Positions 40,353-43,586 of a stretch of DNA of 43,586 nucleotides are shown here, in pieces. A program made the translations under genes and the position numbers. The DNA comes from Candidatus Gastranaerophilales bacterium (lineage in GTDB: Bacteria > Cyanobacteriota > Vampirovibrionia > Gastranaerophilales > Gastranaerophilaceae). Within the stretch, counting starts at the first letter, position 1. Each line of letters begins with the position of its first letter. A model generated the notes under the pieces. That model did not search any database. It was given only the letters and a program-made list of their open reading frames with translations, and had not been told where the DNA came from. The stretch is taken from assembly GCA_944322755.1 (NCBI GenBank), contig CALUPY010000021.1, positions 1 to 43,586 of the forward strand, given 5' to 3'.

Positions 40353-40388
40353 TATCATGTAATTTGAAAATTAAATAGATACTCGAAT

Positions 40389-40465
<77 letters not shown>

Positions 40466-42690: not shown

Positions 42691-43002
42691 ATGAGTTGGA
42701 TATACCTGATACTTGCAATTATGTTTGAAACACTTGCAACCACTTTACTAAAAATGTCCCATGGTTTTTCACTTTTACTACCATCTATAGGAACATTCAT
42801 CGGCTACATACTTTGTTTTTTATTTTTGTCCTATGCATTGAAATCAATAGATATGAGTATTGCATATGCTATTTGGTGTGCCTGCGGAATTTTATTAATC
42901 AGCACAATAGGAATATTCTTTTTTCATGAGTCAATAAGTACTCTAAAAGTTGTGTCTATTGTATTAATCATTTTAGGAACAGTAGGATTAAAGCTGGCAT
43001 AA
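42691..43002 (+). CDS. Small multidrug resistance (EmrE-type) efflux protein
   Basis: Four-helix proton-coupled exporter of cationic compounds, working as a dimer in the inner membrane. 103 residues. The essential glutamate is E13 in AIMFETLATTLLKMSHGF, matching E14 of EmrE. YAIWCACGILLIS in helix 3 matches the EmrE YAIWSGVGIVLIS region. These features favour the Qac/EmrE branch over the guanidine exporters (Gdx/SugE). GAAAGG precedes the ATG by about 8 nt. Separated from the preceding glycosyltransferase by 200 nt, so probably its own unit. Confidence 0.9.
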   Translation: MSWIYLILAIMFETLATTLLKMSHGFSLLLPSIGTFIGYILCFLFLSYALKSIDMSIAYAIWCACGILLISTIGIFFFHESISTLKVVSIVLIILGTVGLKLA

Positions 43003-43006
43003 AAAC

Positions 43007-43036
43007 AGTGTTGTGCAAAAAAGTTTAAGCTTTTTA
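43007..43036 (+). terminator. Possible terminator after the SMR gene
   Basis: GTGTT pairs with AACAC, and inside them AAAAAG pairs with CTTTTT. The U-tract is poor on the plus strand. It lies directly before the promoter of the tRNA-Pro(CGG) unit and would insulate it. Confidence 0.4.
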
Positions 43037-43044
43037 ACACAGGC

Positions 43045-43071
43045 TTGTTTTTAAATATTTTATGATAAAAT
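43045..43071 (+). promoter_or_regulatory. Predicted promoter of the repeat array and tRNA-Pro(CGG)
   Basis: TTGTTT (43045-43050), 15 nt, TAAAAT (43066-43071) with a TGA extension. Its sequence and spacing mirror the promoter of tRNA-Pro(GGG) at 40326-40352. Transcription would start near 43078 and run through all repeat units into the tRNA, about 365 nt away. Confidence 0.55.
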
Positions 43072-43083
43072 TAATAATGTAAA

Positions 43084-43213
43084 TTGAAAATTAAATATCT
43101 AATCGGGATACTCTGCCGAAAAAAATATGACTAAATGTCATATTTTTTGAGAGGAAGCAGCGTAGCTGCGCAGAGTTCTCTATATCGAAAATAAAATCTA
43201 ATCGGGATGTAGC
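43084..43213 (+). repeat. 130-bp direct repeat, copy 1
   Basis: Identical over 130 bp to 43326-43455 (offset 242). It contains the leader TTGAAAATTAAATATCTAAT, structured unit A, an A-rich linker, and the first 11 nt of the tRNA-Pro sequence (CGGGATGTAGC). After that point copy 1 continues into unit B, while copy 2 continues into the real tRNA. Confidence 0.97.
43104..43186 (+). ncRNA. Structured unit A (first copy), putative RNA element
   Basis: Starts CGGGATACTC. Predicted helices: outer ACTCTGC (43110-43116) with GCAGAGT (43170-43176); an internal hairpin AAAAAATATGAC (43120-43131), loop TAAAT, GTCATATTTTTT (43137-43148); and GCAGC-GTA-GCTGC (43157-43169). Together they form a three-way junction. 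No open frame. Shares the 13-nt apical hairpin TGACTAAATGTCA with unit B. No Rfam family recognised by eye. Confidence 0.6.
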
Positions 43214-43321
43214 AAGGACTCCGTACAAAAGCTGACTAAATGTCAGGTTTTGGATGGAGGCAGGCTAAGTCAGAAACGAAGTTTCTGCGTGCCGTATAAC
43301 AATTTAAAACCAAGCTGCATC
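43203..43321 (+). ncRNA. Structured unit B, putative RNA element related to unit A
   Basis: Begins with the same CGGGATGTAGC as the tRNA, then diverges. Outer stem GATGTAGC (43206-43213) pairs with GCTGCATC (43314-43321), one G-U. CTCC (43219-43222) pairs with GGAG (43256-43259), enclosing AAAAGCTGAC, loop TAAAT, GTCAGGTTTT (one mismatch). GGCA/TGCC closes CAGAAAC-GAA-GTTTCTG (43271-43287). The order of helices and the TGACTAAATGTCA apex match unit A with different stem sequences, as expected of a conserved RNA fold. Confidence 0.58.
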
Positions 43322-43325
43322 AACT

Positions 43326-43455
43326 TTGAAAATTAAATATCTAATCGGGATACTCTGCCGAAAAAAATATGACTAAATGTCATATTTTTTGAGAGGAAGC
43401 AGCGTAGCTGCGCAGAGTTCTCTATATCGAAAATAAAATCTAATCGGGATGTAGC
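43326..43455 (+). repeat. 130-bp direct repeat, copy 2
   Basis: Perfect copy of 43084-43213, including unit A (structured part 43346-43428) and running into the functional tRNA-Pro(CGG). Recombination between copies would delete unit B and 242 bp. Confidence 0.97.
43346..43428 (+). ncRNA. Structured unit A (second copy), putative RNA element
   Basis: Same sequence and helices as the first copy at +242, lying 16 nt before the mature tRNA 5' end. In a common transcript it would be part of the tRNA precursor leader, removed by RNase P. Confidence 0.6.
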
Positions 43456-43518
43456 GCAGCTTGGTAGCGCACCGTGTTCGGGTCGCGGGGGTCGCAAGTT
43501 CGAATCTTGTCATCCCGA
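43445..43518 (+). tRNA. tRNA-Pro (anticodon CGG)
   Basis: Cloverleaf of 74 nt without CCA. Acceptor CGGGATG pairs with CATCCCG; D arm GCGC-AGCTTGGTA-GCGC; anticodon stem CCGTG/CGCGG closes TTCGGGT, giving anticodon CGG for CCG codons; T arm GCAAG-TTCGAAT-CTTGT. Discriminator A is followed directly by TTTTTT, which may terminate transcription, so CCA must be added by nucleotidyltransferase. The other tRNA-Pro here does encode CCA. Confidence 0.95.
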
Positions 43519-43586
43519 TTTTTTCTATCTTTTTTCAATGGATGGACAAGATTTCATCTTGCCACAACCGGCCTAAGATTACGCTT
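43519..43586. other. Window end: T-tract and small hairpin
   Basis: TTTTTTCTATCTTTTTT is followed by CAAGAT-TTC-ATCTTG near 43550-43565, a 6-bp hairpin with a 3-nt loop. No gene is supported before the window ends. Confidence 0.4.

Follow-up and report, generated by a model that had tools for sequence, protein, structure and literature searches.

Integrative elements, as Williams is said to have set out in 2002, reportedly use tRNA and tmRNA genes as insertion targets and restore the gene through a direct repeat. The Rickettsia palindromic elements are palindromic, folding inserts that have spread within one lineage and are known for insertion inside ORFs, and the attC sites of integrons are recognised as a folded strand, with a variable stem sequence and extra-helical bases. 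REP and REPIN sequences, as presented in two reports, are small, palindromic, non-autonomous repeats that occur in many copies and fold as single-stranded DNA or RNA (PMC3116915, PMC3733652).

The repeat family described here, which forms an array in front of a tRNA-Pro gene in the window (the whole stretch of DNA analysed, 43,586 nt), has something in common with each of these. Like the tRNA-site integrative elements, it targets tRNA and tmRNA genes and keeps the gene whole by a direct repeat (92 units, and tmRNA loci), but its units are roughly 80–140 bp, have no integrase gene, occupy many different tRNAs per genome and use 5′ ends more often than 3′ ends. It consists of palindromic folding inserts spread within one lineage, as do the Rickettsia elements, but these are known for insertion inside ORFs and our family sits at tRNA termini and in other palindromes. 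The folded strand, variable stem sequence and extra-helical bases of the core recall attC, although the GTTRRRY/RYYYAAC arms are missing. Set beside REP and REPIN as those reports describe them (PMC3116915, PMC3733652), the family is likewise small, palindromic, non-autonomous, folding and present in many copies; it differs in having no GTAG/CGTC foot tag and no resident RAYT in its own genome or in genome G049, in targeting tRNA and tmRNA ends with a copy of the target, and in its internal bulge and covarying stem.

The array upstream of tRNA-Pro(CGG)

The array has the order A-B-A and runs directly into its target gene, an intact tRNA-Pro(CGG) at 43444–43519; this gene, tRNA-Pro(GGG) and all array features given below are on the + strand. 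A leader motif, TTGAAAATTAAATA, stands upstream of unit A at 43084–43097 and a second time at 43326–43339. It is also present at 40364–40377, where it precedes tRNA-Pro(GGG) (40389–40465), a site without a unit in the window and with a 96-bp unit in the congener G148. Each array unit is preceded by the first 6 or 11 bases of tRNA-Pro(CGG), CGGGAT or CGGGATGTAGC. The copied CGGGAT at 43104–43109 is the 5′ flank of the unit A core at 43110–43154 (ACTCTGCCGA-stem-TAAAT-stem-GAGAGG), which matched the covariance model with 70.6 bits (E 4.8e-13) and is followed in the fold by a second hairpin, P3, at 43157–43169 (GCAGC-GTA-GCTGC). The copied CGGGATGTAGC at 43203–43213 flanks unit B, whose core at 43218–43260 belongs to a divergent subtype, ACTCCGT..GATGGAGG, with B-type relatives in congeners and a covariance model match of 36.7 bits (E 5.7e-5); its P3 at 43271–43287 (CAGAAAC-GAA-GTTTCTG) was taken from the fold and covaries in those relatives. 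A third copy of the tRNA-Pro 5′ end, CGGGAT at 43346–43351, leads into the second exact copy of unit A, with its core at 43352–43396, identified by a 130-nt repeat and a model match, and its P3, read from the sequence, at 43399–43411. The repeat spans 43084–43213 and 43326–43455 at 100% identity, and places unit A on both sides of B.

No ORF of at least 80 aa overlaps the array region (43003–43586), which leaves the units without an encoded integrase and speaks against the alternative, raised with the original prediction, that the region is a decayed gene. Directly upstream, at 42691–43002, is an ordinary gene of the Small Multidrug Resistance family (PF00893). A search of the window against Rfam returned tRNAs only. 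The repeat itself matched no Rfam family; the best sub-threshold match had 15.7 bits and an E of 2.3 (gathering score 40).

Fold, covariation and folding strand

Units A and B had been described as sharing an outer stem, a long hairpin with an identical apex and a second hairpin on the 3′ side. The sequence of both agrees with this, and both fold far better than shuffled sequences, at −32.9 kcal/mol (z −5.8) for A and −37.4 kcal/mol (z −5.3) for B, with 0 of 200 shuffles as good in each case; the two second hairpins are present in the minimum free energy folds. The outer stem had to be redrawn. The pairing of ACTCTGC with GCAGAGT is visible in A, but this alternative partner was seen only where unit A recurs within the own genome and, including a G-U pair, in the congener G147, and the helix of the family is CTCT with the AGAG of GAGAGG. 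The family core is about 45 nt long and reads 5′-A-CUCU-GCCGA-(12-bp covarying stem)-UAAAU-(stem)-G-AGAG-G. Since the B subtype has its base helix changed to CTCC/GGAG, we prefer the 4-bp CUCU/AGAG helix over a k-turn reading of CUC-UGCC-GA/GA-GAG, which was rejected. P3 of the B-type relatives varies with its pairing kept (e.g., AGAAAC/GTTTCT, AGAAGC/GCTTCT and AAAAGC/GCTTTT), apart from a mismatch in two of them (L270 and L111), and the B unit of G148 has another stem and apex within conserved surroundings.

Structure statistics and the covariance model were based on 63 distinct aligned cores of length 45, picked by their constant ends and all carrying the apex GACTAAATGTC, and for this reason invariant columns are uninformative, including all four base pairs of CTCT/AGAG, and the stem is the unselected part. 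Pairing is kept in 90.2% of cells, two-sided changes occupy 146 cells against a shuffled mean of 49 (0 of 500 shuffles as high), and the covariation score is 0.322 compared to 0.094 when shuffled and at most 0.092 when slid, all against a shuffle null that ignores relatedness among the cores. Two-sided changes are found in 8 of the 12 stem pairs; neither this count nor the number of pair types (25) is above shuffles, and the excess lies in how often both sides of the stem change together. Covariation in aligned homologs is well above the shuffled background, as had been anticipated. The proposed selection on structure is strongly supported by these cores, but its assignment to RNA is not, as single-stranded DNA would serve equally. 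Which strand folds can be read from the stem non-pairs: in 79 equal-arm cores, 98 are purine-purine and 7 pyrimidine-pyrimidine on the + strand, and therefore it is the + strand that folds, as RNA or single-stranded DNA alike. In the same cores G-T occurs 11 times and A-C 4 times, in line with this strand assignment.

The TAAAT loop was originally thought to be a constant recognition element, a view we had to abandon, as other apices are common in the family (GATTRAGTATC, AATCCRGTGAATT, GCCRGTGGC and GCCTAAACGGC) and G147 has the loop inverted at the same locus. The constant part of the core is its base, CUCUGCCGA/GAGAGG, i.e., CTCTGCCGA/GAGAGG. A regular-expression search yielded 98 distinct cores, of which 86 carry the apex GACTAAATGTC and 12 another, with a scan pattern that itself favours GACTAAATGTC; the own genome (2.19 Mb) contains 20 copies of this 11-nt apex, more than expected by chance, and a single copy of the reversed control. 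In the G147 unit before tRNA-Pro(CGG) (L242), the apex is TGACATTTAGTCA in place of TGACTAAATGTCA and the rest is near-identical, an inversion of the hairpin loop.

Distribution and copy number

BLAST of unit A against its own genome found 12 places, and the covariance model found 24 cores (E ≤ 1). A pattern scan of named genomes gave at least 114 loci, and among the matches listed the record titles were mostly Candidatus Gastranaerophilales or unnamed gut bacteria. Two loci with cores carry other titles, Muribaculaceae (L047) and Acinetobacter (L109), and are probably from mislabelled or contaminated MAG bins. Covariance model R1 found the core in 122 of the 124 genomes sampled from the window’s own GTDB family (the exceptions are G022 and G243), in 4 of 22 genomes from other families of the order (three in f14, one in f15) and in none of the 94 genomes that represent other families in the class. 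When those 94 genomes were included in the covariance-model search, 51 of 52 genomes of the own family had a core, the split between 51/52 and 0/94 being deduced from the kinship order of the genomes, as the 75 with no match were unlisted. In viral_contigs, three pattern scans gave no match, leaving carriage by phage without support.

Copy number ranges from 1 to about 49 cores per genome, and the high counts are lower bounds, as the large searches scored 43 candidates per genome. The 49 belong to G049, where near-identical copies are dispersed and distant from tRNAs. Contigs C16, C20, C21, C36 and C42 of the own genome (G000) stop no more than about 250 bp from a core; with contig ends beside cores, the repeats probably break assembly and copy numbers are underestimated.

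Target sites and flanking sequence

The own genome has 42 tRNAs, and 15 of its 24 cores (E ≤ 1) are no more than 400 bp away from one of them; counted as independent loci, 10 of 18 are this close to a tRNA (binomial P about 7e-14). At the loci examined, the 5′ flank of 92 units matches the first bases of the adjoining tRNA, read from outside and with one mismatch allowed; the copy is 6–26 bases long and the units are directly outside the tRNA gene. Sense units are found after base 11/12 (47), 18–20 (15), 6–8 (11) or 26 (2) of the tRNA, and antisense units (17/92) after 10–14 bases counted from its 3′ end. We take these positions to be near the ends of structural blocks of the tRNA, namely the acceptor-stem end, the D-stem, the point between G18 and G19 of the D-loop, and the D-arm end. 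The units point inward, sense at 5′ ends and antisense at 3′ ends, and this speaks against a function confined to the pre-tRNA. The same isoacceptors are occupied in several genomes, and tmRNA 3′ ends are also targeted, with a tmRNA gene contained in L041, L110, L116 and L188. Many of the 180 cores compared have no matching tRNA in the sampled stretch, partly through contig ends and partly through other palindromes. At L119, L204 and many G049 loci, cores are inside dispersed palindromes of the forms CATTCTGAGC..GAAGAATC, CATTGCGAGC..GCAATCC and CCTCCCC..GGGTGGGG.

Two stretches of the own genome may be gene-bearing intervals. At 2122–5940 of contig C2 (L010), two cores with the tmRNA 3′-end flank GGAGACGAGG precede the tmRNA by 3.4 and 1.4 kb, with ORFs in the interval and a DUF2971 ORF between the second core and the tmRNA. 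At 22–871 of contig C36 (L014), a ParD/ParE toxin-antitoxin pair is flanked by two cores with tRNA-Phe-like flanks (GCGTCTC).

Many tRNA-flanked units carry on with tRNA sequence beyond the core (GGTAGCGCA and similar) and then turn back along its complement. Complementarity of the 3′ strand to the tRNA 5′ end had a mean score of 14.93 compared to 13.63 when permuted, with 2 of 5000 permutations as high (46 tRNA-flanked classes, including three with an empty flank and a score of 0), and the direct-repeat control of this test was not significant. A general outer stem in all units was rejected, as 207 of 2000 permutations were as high over 52 flank classes, tRNA and non-tRNA; only tRNA-flanked units have this outer-strand complementarity. 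Between many units and the tRNA is a leader motif, TTGAMAAYTNAATA, found 15 times in the own genome and once for the control, but it is no proof of an element end because it is present before unit-free tRNAs too. Tandem units are direct repeats.

Some units have the tRNA part and no core. In other families of the order, L259 (G174) and L262 (G165) have 90-nt units made from the tRNA-Pro 5′ end that differ in their body and lack the ACTCTG core, in tandem in L259, and contigs C8 (L276) and C11 (L279) of the own genome have core-less pseudo-copies of tRNA 5′ ends upstream of tRNA-Arg(CCT) and tRNA-Gly(TCC).

Filled and empty sites among congeners

At tRNA-Pro(GGG), which has no unit in the window, G148 has the same arrangement of promoter, leader and tRNA with 96 extra bases between leader and tRNA. 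The insertion reads CGGGAC, core, P3, GTCCCG and a tail, followed by tRNA-Pro(GGG). The tRNA-Pro(TGG) site is empty in G147 and filled by B-type units in two other congeners, with one unit seen in G146 and two in G148. All four congeners have a unit at tRNA-Pro(CGG), at base 6 in three of them and at base 19 in G148. Therefore, occupancy and position vary within one genus.

Possible origins of the units

The inward orientation at both tRNA ends, the copied target sequence in the flank, an occupancy that varies among congeners and the near-identical copies at dispersed places point to a gene-less mobile element of roughly 80–140 bp. We place a probability of about 0.5 on the units being copies of a non-autonomous miniature mobile element that is moved in trans through a folded-strand signal. 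That signal would be the folded + strand of the ~45-nt core, with its CUCU/AGAG base helix, GCCGA bulge, free 12-bp stem and small variable apex, and it is likely that the folded strand is what is recognised. Insertion would occur a few bases inside tRNA and tmRNA gene ends, pointing inward, and the gene would stay whole because its outer bases are copied on each side of the unit. Tandem arrays may then grow by recombination between these flanking direct repeats. The folded strand would be recognised by a trans-acting recombinase or transposase, either as single-stranded DNA or as RNA copied to DNA. The observations behind this are the family itself, its covariation, its targets and orientation, the flanking repeat and one filled/empty pair of sites. 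Against a mobile element is the finding that the 3′ halves of units are partly target tRNA sequence and its complement, which simple transposition fails to explain. No enzyme encoded by or correlated with the units was found, Y1_Tnp and RVT_1 being absent from high-copy genomes, and no mobiliser-like ORF between cores, as an autonomous long form would have, was seen by eye in six loci. A resident RVT_1 reverse transcriptase was rejected as a requirement, since a Pfam RVT_1 search gave 0 in high-copy G049 and G126; the own genome has one stop-bearing RVT_1 fragment below the cut-off.

The unit could also act as a leader RNA that is part of the pre-tRNA transcript and folds by the tRNA 5′ end to affect processing or expression. 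The complementarity to the tRNA 5′ end (2/5000, direct-repeat control not significant) would fit such an RNA, as would the recurrence of units at the same isoacceptors in several genomes, the G148 unit sitting between a conserved leader and tRNA-Pro(GGG), and the promoter-like matches before this tRNA in the window, which are consensus matches only. We nevertheless consider it unlikely, given that the core is antisense to the gene at tRNA (17/92) and tmRNA 3′ ends, dispersed copies stand far from tRNAs, presence at one tRNA differs between congeners, and the complementarity test failed over all 52 flank classes (207/2000). Alternatively, synthesis stalled at tRNA genes could leave fold-back (inverted) and direct duplications of the tRNA end as a by-product of replication or repair, with a captured hairpin carried along. 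Units that read tRNA 5′ part, core, tRNA D-arm part and complement of the 5′ part are what this would produce, and it would accommodate both the loop inversion in G147 and the core-less units of the same logic (those of the own genome at tRNA-Arg(CCT) and tRNA-Gly, and those of G165 and G174 at tRNA-Pro). For one conserved core to be present in 122 of the 124 family genomes, at many tRNAs and in other palindromes, would however need transfer of sequence between loci, making such a by-product decidedly unlikely as the origin. The leader RNA and the repair by-product each explain part of the data, tRNA complementarity and core-less units, and neither explains the whole.

The two cores around the ParDE pair (L014), and the two tmRNA-3′-end-flanked cores followed by ORFs, one DUF2971, before the tmRNA, are reminiscent of integron-like, folded single-strand attachment sites through which small gene cassettes would collect beside tRNA and tmRNA genes. 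Gene-bearing cases number only two, however, nearly all units are gene-less at roughly 80–140 bp, and inspection of the 63 aligned cores found no conserved columns forming GTTRRRY or RYYYAAC simple sites, so we regard cassette sites as improbable. REP or REPIN palindromes mobilised by a RAYT (Y1 HUH) transposase, even one that was lost or transient, are very improbable, despite the small dispersed hairpins and many copies per genome. Of 203 distinct flanked cores, 5 have GTAG and 4 have CGTC no more than 8 nt 5′ of the foot; on the 3′ side GTAG is present in 48 of the 203, which we take for tRNA D-loop sequence. A Y1_Tnp match was found in 15 of 52 sampled family genomes, but there were 0 in the own genome (24 cores, E ≤ 1) and 0 in G049 (49 cores), and a resident RAYT was rejected as the required mobiliser.

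Returning to the miniature mobile element, it would be a new form of miniature palindromic mobile DNA, and there is a chance that its underlying chemistry is new as well; no description of it was found in the literature searched, whose coverage left out preprints and most subscription papers. It is tentatively possible that the family is a protein-less, family-wide mobile nucleic acid, recognised only by its fold, that targets tRNA-like ends and rebuilds a pseudo-copy of the tRNA end around itself by undescribed recombination or RNA-templated chemistry. The tRNA-like ends would then be, just as tentatively, the tRNA 5′ end, the tRNA 3′ end and the tmRNA 3′ end.

Ends of tRNA genes are classic docking sites of mobile DNA, and if the mobile element is real it would be among their smallest users, set apart by its strict positions inside the tRNA and its strict orientation. 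A hairpin with a free stem sequence and a kept fold would offer a direct route to the enzyme by which it is read. Furthermore, the element may explain why some contigs of these genomes stop beside tRNA genes.
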